Positions 7,501 through 22,603 of a stretch of 28,469 bases of DNA are shown here, piece by piece. The notes under the pieces are model-generated. The model searched no databases. It had not been told where the DNA came from and saw only the letters and a list, made by a program, of their open reading frames with translations. The translations under genes were made by a program, and so were the position numbers. The first letter of the stretch is position 1, and each line of letters opens with the position of its first letter. Where the stretch lies: positions 1 to 28,469 of the IMG/VR virus record IMGVR_UViG_3300036841_000289. One strand, given 5' to 3'. The DNA comes from a virus.

Positions 7501-9310
7501 CACATCGCTGGGGCTGATGGACTCCGGCCAGCAGTGGCAGTCCCCGGCCTCCTCGGCGGGCTCGCTGGCCATCGTCAACAAGATCGCGGTGTGCAATGTC
7601 GCCGGGCAGGTCAGCTGGGTGGACACCCAGACACCGTGGGGCACGCTGTCTGTGGTGCTGGGGAACTCGTTCACCACCGGCACCGCGTCGGCCTCGGTGC
7701 CGTTGCTCTACCTGGGCCATTACCGGCTGATGAACGACGGCCGGGTGGTGGACAGCAACACCGGCCGGGTGGTCGCCACCACCGCCGGGATCGCCACCGG
7801 AGATTCGCTGCAGGCCACATTCCTGCCCACCGCGCTGCTCTCCTCACCGCCGGGCGGCGTTGACCCGACCGTGCAGTCCTGGTCGTTCACGCTCTCCCGC
7901 AACGGCACCCAGGTCGCCACTCTGTCCAGTGCGCACGGCATCGGCACGATGCGCGGGCTGGCCGGTGCGGTCGGCCAGCAGTTCACCTCGTTCAGCTGGG
8001 TGCCCCGTGCGGCGGCCGTCCCGGCCGGGACGGTCATCCCGGCCCAGCCGATGCCCACCGACGGCGCGGAGGACCCGTCCGGGCTGCAGTGGGTGCAGGC
8101 CAACGGCCAGGTATGGAGCACTCCGCAGTCCCCCATGCAAAGTCCGCCGGTGCCACCCACGTGGGGAAGTCTCCCGGCGTGGCAGGGCGGCGCGAACACC
8201 ATCACCGCCCCGGCCTTCCCGAGCGGTGATACCCCGGCCATCGTGATGGTCTCGACCGACACCGGAAACCAGTACGGCACGTTCATCTTCCGGATCACCC
8301 AGCTCGCCGCCACGATCGCGGCCAACACCTATTCGATCGCGGTGCTCGACCAGCCCAACGCGAACACCCAGCTGCAGCTGCAGGCCAACGGCGACCTGGT
8401 CCAGGTGGTGTCCGGGACGGTGACCACCGTCAAGGCGGGGGTGATCCCGGCGGCGTCGATGACGACCGGCGACATCGCGATCAAGTACGCCAAGACCTCG
8501 CAGCTGTCCACGGCGTTCAAGACCGCTCAGGGCATCTCGAACAGCAGCGCCCAGAGCATGATCTTCATGGTCGACGACACGGTGGTCGGCACCTACTCCG
8601 GCAACAACATCTTCAGCCAGTCGATCCGGGGGTTGTTCGGTTACAACGACAACGCGGGGCACTACACCATCACCACCGGGTTCGGCTGGTTCACCGACGC
8701 CAACGGGGTGACCACCTCCTCGGGCGACGAGACCTGGGACGACGTGAGCGCGCACGAGTCGCGTACCTGGGGCGACCTGTCGATGAACATCAGCGAGGAC
8801 AACCCCAACCCGGTCTTCGTCCAGGTGATCCAGGAGAACGCCTCGGTCGACTCGTGGTACATGGATACCTTGTCGCTGTTCTCCGACCCGATCGTGTGGG
8901 AGTTCTCCAACAACGGCGGGAAGAGCTGGGTACCCGGTTACGACGTGGCCAACAACCCGGAGGGGGCGGTCGCGTTCAACCCCAAGAACCCGAACGACCT
9001 GGCCGCCGTGTCCAACCAGCTCTGCTACCGGGTGACCATCTGGGCACCGGGGAAGTGGGTCAGCCACTTGGCGATCCGGCCCTGGTACCAGGGCTTCATG
9101 CGGTGCATGCCGTTCCGGCCGCAAGGCGTCCCGCAGGGCCCGAACATCAACCCGTGGGACCATTACCCGCCGATCGAGCTGGACCCGCGCTGGCAGGTGT
9201 GGCACCTGCCGATCCCGCGTGAATGGTGGTTCGCGTTCCGGGTGCCGGACACCAGGCCGCGCTACATCACTCCGTACGTCACCGACAACGTCGTGGTCAG
9301 TGGGGTCTGA
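4526..9310 (+). CDS. Very large baseplate / minor tail protein with LamG-like segments
   Basis: The product is 1594 residues, starting at the ATG of an ATGA overlap with the preceding gene. It is strand-rich throughout, without a signal peptide or membrane segments. From about residue 980 it has FSDSFQRADSTSLGLMDSG, the pattern of the LamG/concanavalin-like jelly-roll domains that recur in actinophage minor tail proteins ('dsFnRadstsLG..dsG..W'). A second jelly-roll-like segment lies at about residues 1230-1390. Short WGDL/TWGGI/TWDDV motifs recur around residues 870, 967 and 1400-1415, suggesting repeated linkers between domains. The C-terminus is aromatic-rich (WHLPIPREWWFAFRV). Its place between baseplate and fibre genes suggests a peripheral baseplate or fibre-anchoring role, possibly binding cell-surface glycans. 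The exact function is not known. Confidence 0.68.
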   Translation: MTSPPAVNPVGTVTALAPLFVDHSDLGIFSQAVNATMQTSPGARQLAGQMFWSTDARPADSPVQETLEISLSSTRLVNWIKFDISIFPTLMAIQYYDAASNNWLPLLDQFGQPYQQMIMRSIPVQLPNPVNVPGHLHPQHSFVGHWRSVSQRLKPTYLQRLRFVLQRLNNGLGPVSPLGDQVPYSLALRSITFGYEVATRADVPRTLPVDDTYNQSFASTDDLLGSAIAFSLRDPVVNRIVDNTDTDADAIWVCEPQPYPGAVVCFYADLRDATGNPQLIDQIYINPVSSGAHVTVYVSNDLTVGGFDSPTTPLDITQVQTVGTTPVTIQYGRLLHFGQYGEQAALAITNVPLDVNDPAMRHKAVLGYDPTLPWWFGVTVSPGFDQGVDTAEHPIFDCGVWRLSLTADGVTLIFADGDAHICPITYQGLQDTSVVVSYDGEGTFHMHARNSSDDQTDDFWVVPLQPTPSPVVTLGTDVGMEYFLNSDLTYMVLKEELADGSDGYLDNPGSYCTVAQFSGNDTPQSHNALLRLDLSATTLIDATHPWGLFGGPSAQYENLVWSPVPRDFVMTRGWMYLPPTEARFVKLEITNLQAVPYDVAVVGPQQVKTFPPQVLDAYRDQLINTASVVPPLGAATQISLSGTVPYELPVFVSTGGNGDRGYTNTEVYISDDYSAQERLRALNASVWNYQTWHVGIRAPRFTSAQVHRYTQETITRTGKVAYQCGLRQISFAYSSFTSQQDTGMYEETFYSDRNINNDPNQTNIVYDPDLDALYSGDTTTKASATSLVYTSLRDVRAVQFAVQQSQPVQLLPDDEFEDPSYSNWTLLGDVAPPQEGIVTSPVFGSLLPIDRQLVGGFWADIEPVYHTWGGITDQGKLYSDLGSNVPKSDETYGGVASAPVTQPAGGRLYAAARVVSDQDLSSPLSLQIMDSVTGQPLAEKSINVKANQVTEWYVGYTVGEGGETTANTWGDLTGAYLNNFPSFSDSFQRADSTSLGLMDSGQQWQSPASSAGSLAIVNKIAVCNVAGQVSWVDTQTPWGTLSVVLGNSFTTGTASASVPLLYLGHYRLMNDGRVVDSNTGRVVATTAGIATGDSLQATFLPTALLSSPPGGVDPTVQSWSFTLSRNGTQVATLSSAHGIGTMRGLAGAVGQQFTSFSWVPRAAAVPAGTVIPAQPMPTDGAEDPSGLQWVQANGQVWSTPQSPMQSPPVPPTWGSLPAWQGGANTITAPAFPSGDTPAIVMVSTDTGNQYGTFIFRITQLAATIAANTYSIAVLDQPNANTQLQLQANGDLVQVVSGTVTTVKAGVIPAASMTTGDIAIKYAKTSQLSTAFKTAQGISNSSAQSMIFMVDDTVVGTYSGNNIFSQSIRGLFGYNDNAGHYTITTGFGWFTDANGVTTSSGDETWDDVSAHESRTWGDLSMNISEDNPNPVFVQVIQENASVDSWYMDTLSLFSDPIVWEFSNNGGKSWVPGYDVANNPEGAVAFNPKNPNDLAAVSNQLCYRVTIWAPGKWVSHLAIRPWYQGFMRCMPFRPQGVPQGPNINPWDHYPPIELDPRWQVWHLPIPREWWFAFRVPDTRPRYITPYVTDNVVVSGV

Positions 9311-16024: not shown

Positions 16025-16348
16025 ATGTCGACGCTTGACTATGCCGCCGCGCGTGCCGTGGCGCGGGCGCGACTCCTCGAACGCGCGGTGCACGACTCGG
16101 GCCCCTGGCAGATCGAGATCGCCGGGATCCGCGAGGACGCGGTCAAGGTCCGTACCCCGCACCGGGTGCTGTTCCTGGCCAATTTCTACTCCGTTCCCGA
16201 CCCGGACGCCACGGTGGCGTGGCTGCTCTGCGATGGGCAGTTCCTGTCCTCCAAGGACATCCGGCTCGGCGACTCCGGGCCGTTCTCCATCGAGTGGTCC
16301 ATCATCGGCCCGGATTCGCTGGAGCCCTCGTCACCGGCAGTCGCATGA
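16025..16348 (+). CDS. Hypothetical 107-aa protein upstream of helicase
   Basis: The start is ATG 16025, with AGGAGG at 16015-16020. A GTG at 16022 is also in frame but sits almost on the ribosome site. The product begins MSTLDYAAARAVARARLLER, an amphipathic helix, followed by a strand-rich part (WQIEIAGIREDAVKVRTP, then VLFLANFYSVPDP and FSIEWSII). No domain is recognised. It overlaps the helicase gene by ATGA, so the two are co-translated. The close coupling suggests a partner or accessory of the helicase rather than a tail component, but this is only positional inference. Confidence 0.7.
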   Translation: MSTLDYAAARAVARARLLERAVHDSGPWQIEIAGIREDAVKVRTPHRVLFLANFYSVPDPDATVAWLLCDGQFLSSKDIRLGDSGPFSIEWSIIGPDSLEPSSPAVA

Positions 16349-17919
16349 CCGCATCACCGGCCGCCGCCGCCCGGCCGGTGATGGACAACGGGCGGCTCTT
16401 CCACTCCCCACTCGGCCTATTCGGCTTCCAGGCCGAGTGCGTGGCACGCGCCTACTACCAGGACGGGCTGCTCGCGGTCTGCGATACCGGGCTCGGCAAG
16501 ACGATCATCTCGATGGCGCTGGCCGCGCAGCTGTTCCAGGACGACCAGGTCGACCTCGTCATCCACGTGGCGCAGAAGAACAAGATCGACAAGAGCGAGT
16601 TCCCGGCCGACTGGGCCCGGTTCAGCTCGCTGCGCACGCACGTCTACCACGGCACCAACCGGGGCAGGCGACTGGCCAAGGCGGGCACCCCGGACGTGCT
16701 GATCAGCACCTACGAGACGCTGCGCGAGGACCTGGTCATCTTCTCCGGCCGGTCCGGGCGGGCCCGCACCGACGGCATGCTGGTCGAGGTGCTCAAGCTG
16801 CGCACCGCACGGGTGCTGTGGATCTTCGACGAGATCAGCAAGCTGGGCAACCGGTCCTCCAAGCTGTACCGCGCCTTCGAGTACGTGCTCACCCAGCAGC
16901 GCAACCACGGCCTGCCGCCCCGGGTGCTGGGTCTCTCGGCTACCCCGATGTCCACCGACTACGAGCAGCCGTTCAACATCGGCCGGATCGTCTGGCCCGC
17001 CCGGATGCCGAGCGTCACCTACTTCGAGGACACCTACACCTACGGCCGCGACGACCACGGGCGGCTGCTGTACAAGCGCGGTGCCCGGGAGTGGTTCGCC
17101 GCCCAGTTCGAGCCGCTGATCTACCGCAAGCGGCGCACCGACCCGGACGTGGTCGACCAGATGCCCCGGCTGATGGAGAAGGTGCTCCCGGTCGACCTGC
17201 ACCCGGAGCACCGTGCGCTCTACGAGGCCGTGGGACGCCTGTACGGCCCCGATCCCACCCCGAGGCAGCAGGACCTGCTGCTGATGGCCCAGCGGCTCAC
17301 TGCGGGCCATCCCCGGGCACTGCTGCGCAGCGGCTCGGAACTGGCCAAGGCGGTGGTGGAGACGCTCGGCGCAGACCGGCTGCGAGCCGTCCCGTCGGCC
17401 AAGACGCTACGGCTGATCGAGCTGCTGTCCACACTGAAGGCGCAGGGCGACCCGGCGTTGGTGTTCTGCGCCTTCGCCGAGACCGTGCTGCCCGAGGTGG
17501 CCGCCGATCTGGTGTCCGCCGACCTGCGGGTGGGTATCTACACCGGAGGGCAGTCGTCCAGCTCGAACGAGGCCGCCAAGGCCGCGTTCAAGGCCGGAGA
17601 GCTGGACGTACTGCTGTCCTCGGACGCTGCGGCTACTGGGCTGAACTTGCCTCAGGCGGCCTACGTGATCGAATACGATGCCGCGTCCACGTTCGCCCTG
17701 CGAACACAGCGGTTCGGACGCGGGTTGCGTATCGACTCGGCCAAGTCCCATGTCTATGGCTTGACTATTGTGGCCCGCCGGACCGTCGAGGTCGGCCTGC
17801 TGCAGAGCATGCTCAAACGCAACGACCTACAAGACGAGTTGCACGGCGATCGTGGTGCAGAAGGACATCTCGACGCCAAAGTGCGCCGAGATGTCTCCTT
17901 CGAGGCGTTGCGGAATTAG
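16345..17919 (+). CDS. SNF2/DEAD-like superfamily 2 helicase
   Basis: The 524-residue protein starts at the ATG of an ATGA overlap at 16345-16348; in-frame upstream starts lie deep inside the preceding gene. It carries the two RecA-like lobes of SF2 translocases. Walker A is CDTGLGKT (46-53) and Walker B is the variant DEIS (162-165, FDEISKLGN). Motif III is LSATPMS (about 197-203), and motifs V/VI are AAATGLNLPQA and QRFGRGLR (455-462). The GLGKT Walker A and the C-terminal arrangement are SNF2-like, and the length fits the minimal ATPase core with no extra domain. Phage enzymes of this type act on double-stranded DNA during replication, recombination or transcription. The exact role is not determined. 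DEIS in place of DEAH/DEAD is a conservative variant, so activity is expected. Confidence 0.87.
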   Translation: MTASPAAAARPVMDNGRLFHSPLGLFGFQAECVARAYYQDGLLAVCDTGLGKTIISMALAAQLFQDDQVDLVIHVAQKNKIDKSEFPADWARFSSLRTHVYHGTNRGRRLAKAGTPDVLISTYETLREDLVIFSGRSGRARTDGMLVEVLKLRTARVLWIFDEISKLGNRSSKLYRAFEYVLTQQRNHGLPPRVLGLSATPMSTDYEQPFNIGRIVWPARMPSVTYFEDTYTYGRDDHGRLLYKRGAREWFAAQFEPLIYRKRRTDPDVVDQMPRLMEKVLPVDLHPEHRALYEAVGRLYGPDPTPRQQDLLLMAQRLTAGHPRALLRSGSELAKAVVETLGADRLRAVPSAKTLRLIELLSTLKAQGDPALVFCAFAETVLPEVAADLVSADLRVGIYTGGQSSSSNEAAKAAFKAGELDVLLSSDAAATGLNLPQAAYVIEYDAASTFALRTQRFGRGLRIDSAKSHVYGLTIVARRTVEVGLLQSMLKRNDLQDELHGDRGAEGHLDAKVRRDVSFEALRN

Positions 17920-17986: not shown

Positions 17987-17999
17987 TAGGCTCCGGACC
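17987..17999 (+). promoter_or_regulatory. Possible -10 box and TCCGGA-type repeat before 18001 gene
   Basis: TAGGCT at 17987-17992 fits the actinobacterial -10 pattern TANNNT and ends 8 bases before the ATG at 18001. This would give a leaderless mRNA, which matches the absence of a Shine-Dalgarno sequence. No good -35 is visible. The string TAGGCTCCGGACC closely resembles TAGGTTCCCGGAAC at 18346. Confidence 0.3.
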
Positions 18000-18000
18000 C

Positions 18001-18324
18001 ATGGCGCACACCCACCTGCTGACGCAGGTCGAGTTCTGGATCCCGCCGTTGCTGGAGGAGCTGGCACCGGGTGAGAAGGTGACCTGGCAGGCGAGCTTCC
18101 TGACGCTGCCCGACCCGTCCGTGGAGGGCGGCGGCTGGGTGCCGGTGGTCTGCCTGTACCTGGAGGTGCCGGTGACGGCGGAGAACTCGTTCTACGGCAC
18201 CACCATGCTGCCGCCGTTCGCGCTCACCCTGCCGCAGGTGCGCCAGGCGGTGGTGGAGACGCTGGAGCAGCTGGTCAAGCGCCGGGACGAATACCACGCC
18301 GCTAGCGGGGCCGACAAGACCTAG
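18001..18324 (+). CDS. Hypothetical 107-aa protein
   Basis: The frame 18001-18324 has normal phage codon bias and encodes MAHTHLLTQVEFWIPPLLEE, then KVTWQASFLTLPDPS and WVPVVCLYLEVPV, ending in a helix (LTLPQVRQAVVETLEQLVKR). The alternation of strands and a final helix suggests a small alpha/beta domain, but I recognise no family. It follows the helicase gene after an 81-base gap, so it may have its own promoter. No AGGAGG-like site precedes the ATG; a -10-like TAGGCT immediately upstream would make the transcript leaderless. It is the last gene before the long gene-free, structured region. Confidence 0.68.
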   Translation: MAHTHLLTQVEFWIPPLLEELAPGEKVTWQASFLTLPDPSVEGGGWVPVVCLYLEVPVTAENSFYGTTMLPPFALTLPQVRQAVVETLEQLVKRRDEYHAASGADKT

Positions 18325-18345
18325 ATTCCGGGGCCGCGAGGGGGT

Positions 18346-18359
18346 TAGGTTCCCGGAAC
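18346..18359 (+). promoter_or_regulatory. Candidate promoter/operator of the structured region
   Basis: TAGGTT (18346-18351) fits the actinobacterial -10 pattern. It overlaps an 11-base palindrome, GTTCC-C-GGAAC (18349-18359). Transcription from it would begin near 18358, at the left edge of the structured region. No clear -35 is present. The motif is a near match to TAGGCTCCGGACC at 17987. Confidence 0.35.
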
Positions 18360-18925
18360 AGACAGAAGCCCCGAGTCGTAGCCTCGAAGCTGCGTGCCGT
18401 CGTCGCTACGGGCCCAGGGCCTCTATCTGCCTTTACCAGCGATGGGAGCGTAGCTGATGTTGTGCACAGCGCACCAGTGATCGCCGAATAACGGCATTAC
18501 GTCGTTATTGGCGAGCCCGACGCTAACCAGCCGCCCGCATGGTCCGGGCTGGCATGACCGAAAACTGTCGGGGCCGGGATGAACTCCGGTTCGAACCCAG
18601 GTCGCACTGGACGGTTGCGTGCGCCCGGAAATGGGTGTCCGGGAGTTCTTGCACACCGAAGACCGACGATCCGACCCGGGCAAGCGTGCCGTCCGGGGCG
18701 AGTCGGGGTGAGACCCGGAGCGTGGCGGGACAGGGGAAGCCCGAACCCGGCCCGAGACGTCGGATGTGCAGGGACACCGCGACCAGGTAGCCGTGACGGC
18801 TGGAACACCCGGAGTCCGGTGCTGCCGAGACCGCACGGCCCCAGTTAGCGGCTGGGGCTGCCTGAACAAGGCCGAAGGCATCTGTCGTTAGCTGCCGCCG
18901 TAACCCCCTGCTGGAGGGGGTGGTG
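18358..18925 (+). ncRNA. Candidate structured noncoding RNA of about 570 nt
   Basis: No open frame here has phage-like codon use, yet inverted repeats are dense. Main helices: CGTAGC/GCTACG (18377-18382 with 18405-18410); TCGCCGAATAACG with CGTTATTGGCGA (18481-18493 with 18503-18514, 12 pairs and one bulge); CCAGCC/GGCTGG (18527-18532 with 18547-18552); CCCGGA/TCCGGG (18624-18629 with 18638-18643); a long-range pair TGCACA plus CCGACG with CGTCGG plus TGTGCA (18650-18655 and 18663-18668 with 18758-18763 and 18765-18770) enclosing CCGAC/GTCGG (18671-18675 with 18702-18706); AGCCG-TGA-CGGCT (18789-18801); CGGCCCCAG/CTGGGGCTG (18836-18844 with 18852-18860). A -10-like box precedes and a 7-bp GC hairpin ends it. 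No match to tmRNA, RNase P, SRP or group I/II introns was found by eye. Large phage RNAs such as GOLLD and ROOL are the natural comparison, but no membership is claimed. Ends and strand are inferred. Confidence 0.5.
18903..18921 (+). terminator. GC-rich hairpin, likely end of the structured RNA
   Basis: ACCCCCT (18903-18909) and AGGGGGT (18915-18921) form a perfect 7-bp stem with a 5-base loop. There is no T-run after it, which is common for actinobacterial terminators. A second small inverted repeat GGCATC-CT-GATGCC follows at 18933-18946. Confidence 0.4.
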
Positions 18926-19031
18926 GTGTCTCGGCATCCTGATGCCACCGGTACGGGGTGTGGGATGCGTCGACAGCCTGATCCTGGGTGCGGGAGCAGG
19001 CAGCGGATGCCCTAGGGTCGGGAGGCAACGG

Positions 19032-19340
19032 TTGGACATCCAGCCACATGTCACCACCTACCGGGACGGGAACGGACCTTACGTGCCACTTGCCACCAAC
19101 TTCCCGCGCCGCCAGGCACCCACCGGATCCTTGCGTTGCCTGGCCTGCCTGTCCCGGCACCGGCTCACCCGGATCTGTCTCGGGCAGGGTGTCACCTGGA
19201 TGTGTCCGACCTGCCTGCGGCTGGTGGACCACCTGGCCAGTGTCGAGGGGGTGGACCGGGACCGCGCGGTACGCCGCACGGTGCGGACCATGCGGGCGGC
19301 CTCGGCAGCGGAGACGATGCACCGCGCGGGCCGCCGTTGA
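19032..19340 (+). CDS. Small CxxC...CxxC zinc-binding-type protein
   Basis: The 102-residue frame contains LRCLACLSRHRLTRICLG, then VTWMCPTCLRLVDHLA. CxxC pairs sit at residues 36/39 and 58/61, with an extra Cys49, a classic small zinc-ribbon layout. A basic C-terminal helix follows (DRDRAVRRTVRTMRAA). I placed the start at TTG 19032, because GGGAGG at 19020-19025 lies 6 bases upstream. An ATG at 18942 is in frame but lies within the structured region and would add residues without codon bias. Zinc binding is inferred from the motif; DNA, RNA or protein binding are all possible. The gene ends in front of a series of hairpins and converges on the minus-strand secreted-protein gene. Confidence 0.65.
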   Translation: MDIQPHVTTYRDGNGPYVPLATNFPRRQAPTGSLRCLACLSRHRLTRICLGQGVTWMCPTCLRLVDHLASVEGVDRDRAVRRTVRTMRAASAAETMHRAGRR

Positions 19341-19346
19341 TAGGTG

Positions 19347-19373
19347 CGGCACCGGGGAGGGTAGGCCGTGCCG
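19347..19373 (+). repeat. Small hairpin with GGGGAGGGT loop
   Basis: CGGCAC (19347-19352) pairs with GTGCCG (19368-19373). The loop contains GGGGAGGGT (19354-19362), which occurs again in the loop of the larger hairpin 6 bases downstream (19405-19413). Confidence 0.5.
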
Positions 19374-19378
19374 GTAGT

Positions 19379-19439
19379 GGAAAGCCGCCGGTCCAGACGA
19401 CTCAGGGGAGGGTCGTTGGGGGTGGACCGGCGGCTTTCT
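19379..19439 (+). terminator. 15-bp stem hairpin with nested inner hairpin
   Basis: A perfect inverted repeat (19380-19394 with 19424-19438, left arm GAAAGCCGCCGGTCC) forms a 15-bp stem, extended by one G-U pair. The 29-base loop holds an inner ACGAC/GTCGT stem (19397-19401 with 19412-19416). The 5' AAA and 3' TTT at the stem base fit a terminator after the zinc-binding-type gene, but the long structured loop is more than a terminator needs. Confidence 0.6.
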
Positions 19440-19461
19440 GCCTGCCCATCATGACGGACCG

Positions 19462-19496
19462 CCCGTAAGACGGGGGTAGTGCGTCATCTAGATGAC
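19462..19496. repeat. Two short palindromes, including GTCATCTAGATGAC
   Basis: CCCGT-AAG-ACGGG at 19462-19474 is a 5-bp hairpin with a triloop. GTCATCTAGATGAC at 19483-19496 is a perfect 14-base palindrome, placed 2 bases before the convergent terminator. Such a loopless palindrome is better suited to binding a dimeric protein than to folding in RNA. No promoter is next to it. Confidence 0.45.
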
Positions 19497-19497
19497 A

Positions 19498-19533
19498 ACG
19501 AAGGCCCCGCCGGAAAAGTGACGGGGCCTTCGT
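19498..19533. terminator. Bidirectional terminator between convergent genes
   Basis: ACGAAGGCCCCG (19498-19509) and CGGGGCCTTCGT (19522-19533) form a perfect 12-bp stem with a 12-base loop. It stands between the plus-strand zinc-binding-type gene and the stop of the minus-strand secreted-protein gene at 19551, so it can end transcription from both sides. Confidence 0.8.
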
Positions 19534-19550
19534 CGATCAGGTGGTGAATG

Positions 19551-20600
19551 TCAGCGCCGTCCGGTGGACGTGTAACAGGACGCGGTAGCTCGCGCTATCG
19601 CACCAGCCCCACCTGTGCTCGCGGCATTGAGCACCAAGGGTCCGCCGTCCAGCGAGACGGTAACAGTACCCACCGTCCCCGCCGGGGTCGAGGCATATAC
19701 CGGATCACGTGAGGTCTGCACGAACTGCACATTGATCCCGATGTCTCGTTGTTGCCCGAAGTCATCGGTCGCGAACTGCATCGTCAATGACCGACAGCTG
19801 CCTGGATTGTCGTGGTCAAAGATCACGTTGTCGGTATATTTCGGCGCGGTCGAGGTATCCACGATATCTGTTGTGTTGAACAGCGAGTTGCCGACTTGGG
19901 TCGTCTGGGGATAACTGCCACGTTCCGAGAACATCGGTGTGAAGTTGATGGTGGCGTAGCTGTACACCGGCGTGCCCTTACCGACGGCGAGTGCCGAGGA
20001 CCCCCGGTAGGCCACTAGCCGGTAGTACATCCTGCCCATCGGGATCTTGGGAGCGGTGACCGTGCCGGACGAGTGATAAAGCCGCATCACCGAGTGGTAG
20101 GTCGAGCCGTAGGTGCGTTGCAGGGTCAGCGACCAGCCGGAGGGCAGGTTGTGCGCCGCGTAGCTGAAGGTGGCCCCGGTGGAGTTCGCGGTGACGTGGG
20201 TGTGTATCCCCTTGAGGCTGACGCTGACCGCCGGGAGCACCCCGACGTAGGACGACCTGGTGCCGGTCACCCAGCGGTGGTGGTAGACCGCGAGCCGGTA
20301 CCGGTAGGTGCCGGTGTAGTTCAGCTTCGGCGCGGTCACCGTTCCGGAGCGGCGGGTGCCCAGCGCGACCACGGTGACCCACTTCTTGCCGGAGAGCCGT
20401 TGCAGGTAGCCGTGCGACCCGGCCGGGACGTGGTGTTCGGCGAAGCTGAAGACCTCCGAGTGCCTGACGTTGATGTAGCGCTGGCTGGCGTGCAGGCTGG
20501 CGTGGGCGGCGGCGGCTTGGGCCGCCGGTGCGACTGCCAGACCCCCGGCCAGCAGCCCCGCGCCGGTGAGCGCGGCGACCAGTTTCCGATTGACGTGCAT
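19551..20600 (-). CDS. Secreted Ig-like host-type protein (candidate moron)
   Basis: The start is ATG at 20600 (reading leftwards), with GGGGGGA upstream; an in-frame start at 20666 would put a terminator hairpin inside the gene. The 349-residue product begins with a Sec signal peptide: MHVNRKLVAALTG, a hydrophobic core and cleavage near AQA-AAA at residue 29. Two tandem Ig-like repeats follow, sharing the pattern 'LQR...GTVTAP......YRL': YLQRLSGKKWVTVV and GTVTAPKLNYTGTYRYRLAV (about 46-115), then TLQRTYGSTYHSVM and GTVTAPKIPMGRMYYRLVAY (about 120-200). The last 145 residues look like an NPCBM-type beta sandwich (SCRSLTMQFATDD, AGTVGTVTVSLDGGPLVLNA) holding the only two cysteines, a possible disulfide. 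Such proteins are known from actinobacterial hosts. In a phage, on the opposite strand, it suggests lysogenic conversion or surface modification. No catalytic motif is visible. Confidence 0.8.
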   Translation of the reverse strand: MHVNRKLVAALTGAGLLAGGLAVAPAAQAAAAHASLHASQRYINVRHSEVFSFAEHHVPAGSHGYLQRLSGKKWVTVVALGTRRSGTVTAPKLNYTGTYRYRLAVYHHRWVTGTRSSYVGVLPAVSVSLKGIHTHVTANSTGATFSYAAHNLPSGWSLTLQRTYGSTYHSVMRLYHSSGTVTAPKIPMGRMYYRLVAYRGSSALAVGKGTPVYSYATINFTPMFSERGSYPQTTQVGNSLFNTTDIVDTSTAPKYTDNVIFDHDNPGSCRSLTMQFATDDFGQQRDIGINVQFVQTSRDPVYASTPAGTVGTVTVSLDGGPLVLNAASTGGAGAIARATASCYTSTGRR

Positions 20601-20628
20601 GCGGTGTATCCCCCCGAAGACGTAAGAA

Positions 20629-20651
20629 GAAGCCCGGCTGATCCGGGCTTC
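20629..20651 (-). terminator. Intrinsic terminator/attenuator between HTH and secreted-protein genes
   Basis: GAAGCCCGG and CCGGGCTTC form a 9-bp stem with a 5-base loop. Read on the minus strand the stem is followed by TTCTTCTTA, so it is a terminator for the HTH gene. It lies only 28 bases before the secreted-protein ATG, leaving little room for a separate promoter, so it may act as an attenuator. Confidence 0.75.
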
Positions 20652-20681
20652 CGTCTCGGGCAACATAGCTGGCGGTGAGGA

Positions 20682-21241: not shown

Positions 21242-22093
21242 ATGACTAGAACATGGCAGGACAACGCGCACGAGTTCGGCGCGTTGACCAAGCAGGGCAA
21301 GGACTTCCGGCTCGCGTTGCTGGTCGCCTGCTCGGTCGAACGAGGACGGCCTGGACCGAAGGCGATAGACCCAAACGGGTCTATCTCCACCAAGGTCGAC
21401 GCCAAGTCGTTCGCAGAGGTGGCGCTGGGCATCCGCAAGTCCGACCGTGTACTGCGTCACTTGGATGCCTGGAACAAGATGGCCGAGGCGTTGCCCGATC
21501 AGGTGCCTGTCGCCGACACCCTCACTCCCGTCGACGCCGAGACCTTCGGCGAAGTCAGTGAGGAGGTCCAAGACAAGTTCGCCGAAGTCTTCACGTCGAT
21601 CACCGACGAGAAGCCGACTGGCGGACGCCCACGCGACTCCAAGCCCGAGGATGCGGCGGCGATCATCGGCAAGCGCGGTGCCAAGGCCGTCCTGGACGAG
21701 ATGTCCACCGACGAGTTCAACAAGCTGGCCGAGGCGGTTAGCAAGAAGCGTGCTGAGAACTTTGAGTCCGATTTCGCCAAGCAGCGCAAGCGCAAGCCCA
21801 AGCCGAAGGACAACGGCAACGACGGTGGTGCGGACAAAGACGAACTGGCCAAGCAGGCCACCCGACTCGCCTTGTTCGCCCAGACCGAACCCGGTCCGGG
21901 TTCGTTGTTGGAGATCAACTCAATTCTCGTCGGCCCTAAGCGGACCCATCTGGATGCCGAGATCTTCCAGTATTTAGGGGAATGGATCGACCGGATGCGG
22001 ATGGGTCTCGACATGGTCGAACGCGCTCTCAAAAGCGCCACGACCGGCGAGGATCTGGCGGGCCAGATCGAAGACTTCCTCAGCGAGCAGTAG
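21242..22093 (+). CDS. Hypothetical 283-aa early protein
   Basis: This is the first gene of the early plus-strand operon, starting at ATG 21242 with CGGGGA upstream. The product is mostly helical and charged. The N-terminal part (HEFGALTKQGKDFRLALLVA, then KSFAEVALGIRKSDRVLRHL) could form a DNA-binding helical domain. A Lys-rich segment around 175-195 (KQRKRKPKPKDNGND) looks like a disordered, nucleic-acid-binding linker. The C-terminal helices (WIDRMRMGLDMVERALKSAT) may dimerise. I do not recognise the family. Its place beside the switch region suggests an early regulatory or DNA-maintenance role, which is inference. Confidence 0.78.
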   Translation: MTRTWQDNAHEFGALTKQGKDFRLALLVACSVERGRPGPKAIDPNGSISTKVDAKSFAEVALGIRKSDRVLRHLDAWNKMAEALPDQVPVADTLTPVDAETFGEVSEEVQDKFAEVFTSITDEKPTGGRPRDSKPEDAAAIIGKRGAKAVLDEMSTDEFNKLAEAVSKKRAENFESDFAKQRKRKPKPKDNGNDGGADKDELAKQATRLALFAQTEPGPGSLLEINSILVGPKRTHLDAEIFQYLGEWIDRMRMGLDMVERALKSATTGEDLAGQIEDFLSEQ

Positions 22094-22138
22094 AGGGCGA
22101 GCTGGGGCAGAAATCTACCAAGAGGGAGGTGAACACAT

Positions 22139-22603
22139 ATGGGACGACGATTACAAGCAGCGTCAACCGTGGCCTTCCTCAAGCAACGCGGGGGAGCTAA
22201 CTGGATAGATCTTGCCGCCGAGTTCGGTGTCACCCGGGCAGGGGTGAAGAACCGGATCAAGGCGGCCCGGATCTACCTGGTAGAACAAGGTGCGCGAGAG
22301 ACGATCGCGAGACCGACCCGGGAGAACGATTTCCTGTACATGGTGACCGGGCAGTTGTACGGCACCAGTTGGACAGAGCCCGGCATTACCCCGGGAGCCA
22401 GGGATGATCTCCAGGCGATTCGCGGGATCTTGATCAGGATGCGCGATCAGATCGAGATCGGGTTGGACAACGAGGTCAACCGCAAGAGCGGCCAGTACCG
22501 CGAAGGCCAGAAGGTTGCCGCGTCGCTGACCTTGGTCATCGACGAGACTGACAAGAAGGAGAAGGTCATCAGGAAGTATCTCGCCCGCAGTATGGGCACC
22601 TGA
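22139..22603 (+). CDS. Early HTH protein, 154 aa
   Basis: A strong ribosome site (GAGGGAGGTGA) precedes ATG 22139. An N-terminal helix-turn-helix lies at about residues 22-44 (WIDLAAEFGVTRAGVKNRIK), followed by a helical part with DDLQAIRGILIRMRDQIEIG, and a C-terminus KKEKVIRKYLARSMGT. The Arg-rich, helical C-terminal half could mediate oligomerisation. It follows the 283-aa gene by 45 bases and precedes the replication ATPase, so it may be a transcription or replication-origin factor; which of these cannot be told from the sequence. Its stop codon lies inside the stem of the hairpin at 22600-22664, so translation to the end would compete with folding. Confidence 0.75.
   Translation: MGRRLQAASTVAFLKQRGGANWIDLAAEFGVTRAGVKNRIKAARIYLVEQGARETIARPTRENDFLYMVTGQLYGTSWTEPGITPGARDDLQAIRGILIRMRDQIEIGLDNEVNRKSGQYREGQKVAASLTLVIDETDKKEKVIRKYLARSMGT

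Follow-up and report, generated by a model that had tools for sequence, protein, structure and literature searches.

Phages and prophages carry large ornate RNAs such as GOLLD and ROOL, and these are often found near tRNA islands (PMC12286853). YrlA, a Y RNA (Rfam RF02553), is a circularly permuted mimic of tRNA that tethers Rsr (PMC8394870, PMC11472068). In MoMoMixon, a Bxz1-like phage, the tail genes and a helicase are separated by a tRNA/tmRNA island. Here, we consider a noncoding interval in the IMG/VR virus record IMGVR_UViG_3300036841_000289, all 28,469 bases of which we call the window (the record may itself be a fragment). The interval resembles GOLLD and ROOL in that it is noncoding, hundreds of bases long, and phage-borne, and it lies in the slot that holds tRNA islands in relatives. 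Unlike those families, our candidate is known from sequence alone, and comparing it to the covariance models of Rfam gave no match, either at the gathering cut-off or at any E value up to 10. Neither GOLLD nor ROOL appeared in these searches, so kinship with these families, to which an earlier note on this DNA had likened the candidate, is unsupported, and what they have in common is only analogous in size and place. Like the islands of Bxz1-like phages, the interval is between tail genes and replication genes, but the window does not contain any tRNA or tmRNA that we could find: tRNA, tmRNA, and permuted tmRNA were all rejected, as neither ARAGORN nor Rfam gave a match in the window.

We think that the likeliest explanation, with a probability of about 0.5, is that the interval is an orphan phage gene for a noncoding RNA. 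We favor this reading because of the interval's position, in a slot where relatives have RNA genes, and it is plausible because a conserved RNA is found at the same place in two of those relatives (L002 and L069). The features that we discuss are listed in Table 1.

Table 1. Features in and around the noncoding interval, in window coordinates
Feature	Position	Strand	Basis or remark
SNF2/DEAD-type helicase hel1	16345..17919	+	Pfam Helicase_C, SNF2-rel_dom; upstream anchor gene common to relatives
Small protein p107	18001..18324	+	Coding signal; directly 5' of noncoding interval
Noncoding interval, candidate RNA gene	18325..19031	+	No coding frame on either strand; syntenic gap with conserved RNA in L002, L069
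End-to-end pairing, 5' arm (putative): AGGGGGTTA with 18901-18909, GACAGAAGCC with 18877-18886	18339..18370	+	p 0.037
TAGGTT, -10-like (TANNNT)	18346..18351	+	One of few TAGGNT sites
Mixed-sequence stem-loop, 6+8 pairs, one bulge	18481..18514	+	Pair probabilities about 0.9
Long hairpin arm with interruptions, about 50 pairs (predicted)	18552..18769	+	Ensemble pair probabilities >0.8; z -3.2
3' domain, TGCCGAGAC/GTCTCGGCA around hairpins 18837-18859 and 18903-18921	18823..18936	+	z -4.1, chosen post hoc
End-to-end pairing, 3' arm (putative)	18877..18909	+	Pairs with 18339..18370
GC hairpin ACCCCCT/AGGGGGT, pairs 18903-18909/18915-18921	18903..18921	+	Drawn in sequence and fold
TAGGGT, -10-like, before zinc-ribbon gene	19013..19018	+	TAGGNT scan
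Four-cysteine small protein, zinc-ribbon-like	19032..19340	+	Probable TTG start behind GGGAGG
15-bp stem then TCT, probable terminator of zinc-ribbon gene	19381..19437	+	Sequence

The window is from an actinobacterial virus. It encodes a myovirus baseplate protein, collagen-bearing tail proteins, two helicases (hel1 and hel2), and an AAA_25 protein. Its nearest named kin (Bxz1-like mycobacteriophages, Gordonia phage Skog, and Rhodococcus phage E3) are distant, with protein identity below 30%. In the closest record that we found, L002 (IMGVR_UViG_3300036832_001028), hel1 is 59% identical, as compared to 48% in L068 and L059 and 47% in L069. A homologue of p107 lies right after hel1 in L002, L059, L068, and L069, and weakly so in L060; L003 has a homologue as well. 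(When p107 was the sole query, searches of INPHARED and IMG/VR turned up no relatives.) On the other side of the interval, the zinc-ribbon-like protein is encoded within a weakly scoring ORF (18942-19340), and no phage homologue of its gene was found.

The earlier note had proposed that about 570 bases (18358-18925) are noncoding, and this was borne out for a larger region. We trained a codon-usage score on the clear genes of the window and applied it to all six frames. The score was positive for hel1, for p107, and for a minus-strand gene at 19551-20666, while from 18325 to about 19031-19040 it was negative in every frame on both strands, which rules out a protein-coding gene in the interval. 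We placed the end of the interval at 19031 because the next gene probably begins with the TTG at 19032. That gives 707 nt without coding signal, versus 203-313 nt for the other gaps in the window, and in such a compact genome this argues for an RNA gene.

In this group of viruses, the slot after hel1 and the small protein often, but not always, contains RNA genes, and these are of different kinds. In L062, hel1 is followed by a tRNA array; in L002, the p107 homologue is followed by a noncoding gap of 657 nt; and in L069 there is a gap of about 450 nt at the same place, with an HNH-like gene after it. On the other hand, there is no large noncoding gap after hel1 in L003 or L060, which argues against an RNA gene in the window, and in L059 the gap contains reading frames. 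It is possible, and we say this more tentatively than that the interval is an RNA gene, that the window contains a large structured phage RNA of an undescribed family and that this lineage swaps unrelated RNAs in and out of the slot (tRNA arrays, tRNA/tmRNA islands, the RNA of L002 and L069, and the one in the window). The set of large RNAs that accompany tRNA islands in phages would grow by an unclassified one, provided that the interval is transcribed. Also, a fixed genomic address (hel1-p107, 5' of the replication genes) would be a place to collect further phage RNAs, such as the family in L002 and L069. We also note that L069 has about 1.1 kb without clear genes (7900-9010), between the HNH-like gene and hel2, which consist of degenerate repeats that are rich in GGCAGG and TCYGGT.

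The structured RNA that is kept at the hel1-p107 locus lies at 8176-8415 in L002, where it precedes the gene for an 88-amino-acid protein, and at 7144-7362 in L069, where it precedes the HNH-like gene. The two gaps have six colinear blocks in common (67 matches, versus 46.8 ± 1.7 in shuffled sequences). The differences in spacing are not multiples of three, and the blocks keep no constant frame. When the two sequences were folded together with RNAalifold, all 52 of 52 pairs were kept, 9 of them with changes on both sides, and this was equalled by 4 of 500 shuffles, with the structure derived from the same two sequences in which the pairs were counted. Rfam has no match to this RNA, and it is apparently a structured RNA that was not previously described. 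We found no members of the family beyond these two: a search of 84,980 genomes for the pattern TAGGTGGCGC..GACGGTGCCG gave 55 hits, none of which had the other blocks in place, and these seem to be coding coincidences, as nearly all of the spacings are multiples of three. The interval in the window is like this RNA in its position after hel1 and p107, in its strand, and in being noncoding, but the six blocks were not detected in it.

More broadly, we found no homologue of the interval's own sequence in INPHARED, PLSDB, or the related IMG/VR contigs, except for an exact match of 20 nt between positions 18664-18683 and an RNA array in L014, and the lack of homologues counts against an RNA gene. 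Aligning the whole interval to that of L002 gave p values of 0.16 and 0.79 under two scoring schemes. A mobile element with 9-bp inverted ends was rejected, as the sequence has no target duplication.

The -10 element of actinobacterial promoters is TANNNT. TAGGNT occurs only 5 times in the 28.5 kb, counting both strands, and the plus-strand sites (17987, 18346, and 19013) adjoin p107, the noncoding interval, and the zinc-ribbon gene, respectively. The second of these is the -10-like TAGGTT that had been claimed to precede the candidate RNA, and it is indeed present. That two plus-strand sites flank the interval argues for an RNA gene. The layout in L002 is similar, with 4 of 6 TAGGNT sites inside its RNA gap. 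These sites would fit -10 elements, but since neither a -35 element nor a sigma70 consensus was found near the noncoding interval, we regard the promoters as suggestive only, and the missing -35 is a point against an RNA gene. The site before p107 (TAGGCT, 17987-17992) is eight bases 5' of the ATG, as expected for a leaderless actinobacterial mRNA.

The structure of the interval is hardly more than would be expected by chance. In general, folding a single sequence gives no evidence for functional structure (PMC8250186). Every helix that the earlier note had named can be drawn, but its count of at least seven clean helices is matched by shuffled sequence: the region has 8 helices of at least 9 pairs, versus 6.25 ± 2.4 in shuffles (p 0.25). 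The folding z of the whole region is -2.76 on the plus strand and -2.23 on the minus strand, which is within the ordinary spread of the mostly coding window (400-nt tiles across all of it have a mean z of -0.96 ± 1.6, and some coding tiles are far lower). Unselected 220-nt tiles across the interval have z of -1.0 to -3.2, versus -0.63 ± 1.24 for the window. The helix count and the fold of the region argue against an RNA gene; the domains that stand out, with z of -3 to -4.7, argue for it but were chosen post hoc. The lowest z values in the window are at 22001-22400 (-7.0) and 19201-19600 (-5.5); the latter tile contains the 15-bp stem after the zinc-ribbon gene and a further stem near 19503-19537.

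As for the individual helices, the mixed-sequence stem-loop that was described as having 12 pairs is present, but it is interrupted by a bulged G (18481-18486/18509-18514 plus 18488-18495/18501-18508); the hairpin at 18478-18517, a piece chosen post hoc, has a folding z of -4.7. A 9-bp stem-loop reported at 18836-18860 is there with all of its pairs (18837-18845/18851-18859), and so is the GC hairpin that was said to come after the candidate, which is not followed by a U tract and was not reported by a terminator scan. The two-part long-range pairing of 18650-18668 with 18758-18770 can be drawn as 6+6 pairs (18650-18655/18765-18770 and 18663-18668/18758-18763), but it is not favored in the ensemble, where the long interrupted arm prevails. 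The 3' domain extends beyond 18925, where the candidate had been thought to end. Finally, the ends of the interval are complementary (AGGGGGTTA/TAACCCCCT and GACAGAAGCC/GGCATCTGTC; p 0.037 versus shuffles).

If the interval is an RNA gene, in the slot that relatives use for such genes, with the tail/hel1 block on one side and the replication block on the other, then it would probably be transcribed on the plus strand from near 18358, behind the TAGGTT, to give an RNA of about 550-650 nt. The transcript may end near the GC hairpin, or it may read through to the terminator of the zinc-ribbon gene. Its ends might pair, with the long arm and the 3' domain projecting from them. Conceivably, the folded RNA would act during infection as a scaffold or as the partner of a protein, like other RNAs of tRNA islands, and not as a messenger.

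There are other ways to explain a long noncoding interval at this place. It could act at the level of DNA, as a replication or packaging site, or it could be a decayed RNA island, with helices that are chance products of GC-rich sequence. The helix count and fold energy, which are not above background, the lack of conservation, and the replication-type genes downstream (AAA_25 and helicase) would all be consistent with this. Tandem or direct repeat arrays are usual for origins, and the interval has no such array; it also has the stable domains, albeit chosen post hoc. Overall, we find this explanation doubtful, if worth taking seriously. We consider it unlikely that the interval is a long folded 5' leader that is co-transcribed with the zinc-ribbon gene and perhaps controls it. 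That gene is on the same strand and directly 3' of the interval, and the strong terminator-like stem is after the gene, with none after the interval. However, there is a second TAGGGT just 5' of the zinc-ribbon gene, and because other genes follow the RNA in L002 and L069, the RNA does not seem to travel with the zinc-ribbon gene.

The interval could also be a divergent relative within the L002/L069 family, but this is quite improbable, even though the genomic place is the same. A covariance model from the two sequences scores 7.5 bits at 18832-18983 (nominal E 0.0024), but a 404-kb set of mostly coding sequence contains about 18 matches with at least that score, so about 0.03 would be expected by chance in 761 bases. 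The window and L002 also have AACCCCCTG..CTGGA..GGGG in common (at 18902 in the window; nine elements were tested, and this one has p 0.006). Against this, blocks a-f have a colinear score of 52 in the window, versus 50.3 ± 1.5 by chance and 67 for L069 as a positive control, and the colinear blocks of the window and the family have p values of 0.2 and 0.5. It is scarcely credible that 18579-18650 is a permuted, tRNA-like domain as in YrlA. This segment does have a UUCGAAC loop, a CGCAC/GTGCG stem, a GG-bearing hairpin, and a GAACT/AGTTC closing stem in the correct order, which gives it a superficial likeness to the permuted four-way junction, and the 20 nt that recur exactly in the L014 array could be taken to point the same way. 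But a covariance model (R1) built from 10 Y RNAs of phages gives it about 7 bits, with at most 9 bits anywhere in the region; its score for the 5' signature of Y RNAs is 1.5, versus a null median of 2.4; a strict scan for permuted tRNAs is negative; the predicted fold does not form the domain; and the 28.5 kb of the record, possibly a fragment, gave no match to TROVE. We therefore rejected a YrlA Y RNA in the window and return to the relatives, where such RNAs are found.

Arrays of YrlA-type Y RNAs lie directly upstream of a TROVE/Ro60-vWA gene in L010 (6245-6521), L014 (6679-7028), L015 (5233-5528), L016 (5419-5721), and L052 (6668-7109, minus strand). Model R1 matches 8 of 8 records with TROVE and 0 of 7 without it. 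ARAGORN did not call the arrays as such, and one unit in L014 matches YrlA in Rfam, below the cut-off. In these Y RNAs, the basal stem and its internal loop are conserved, with UGAAYGRNN on the 5' side, and are followed by the parts of a tRNA in permuted order (T-arm, 3' strand of the acceptor, short loop, 5' strand of the acceptor, D-arm). Of 31 consensus pairs, 21 have double changes, and 0 of 500 shuffles were as good. Between the leader and the T-arm of several Y RNAs there is also a hairpin that resembles an anticodon loop (CTCTTAA, CTTTTAA, CTGTTAA, CTGCTAA, and others). Such Y RNAs are found at L010:6245-6375, L015:5398-5528, L052:6811-6940 (minus strand), L068:10417-10550, and L069:11307-11436, and the hairpin makes each of them a complete permuted tRNA-like sequence that is opened between the D and anticodon arms. 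The remaining units have no clear hairpin of this kind. Finally, the unit at L014:6759-6806 has an extra small stem and internal loop between its acceptor strands, and this stem holds the 20 nt that match the window exactly.
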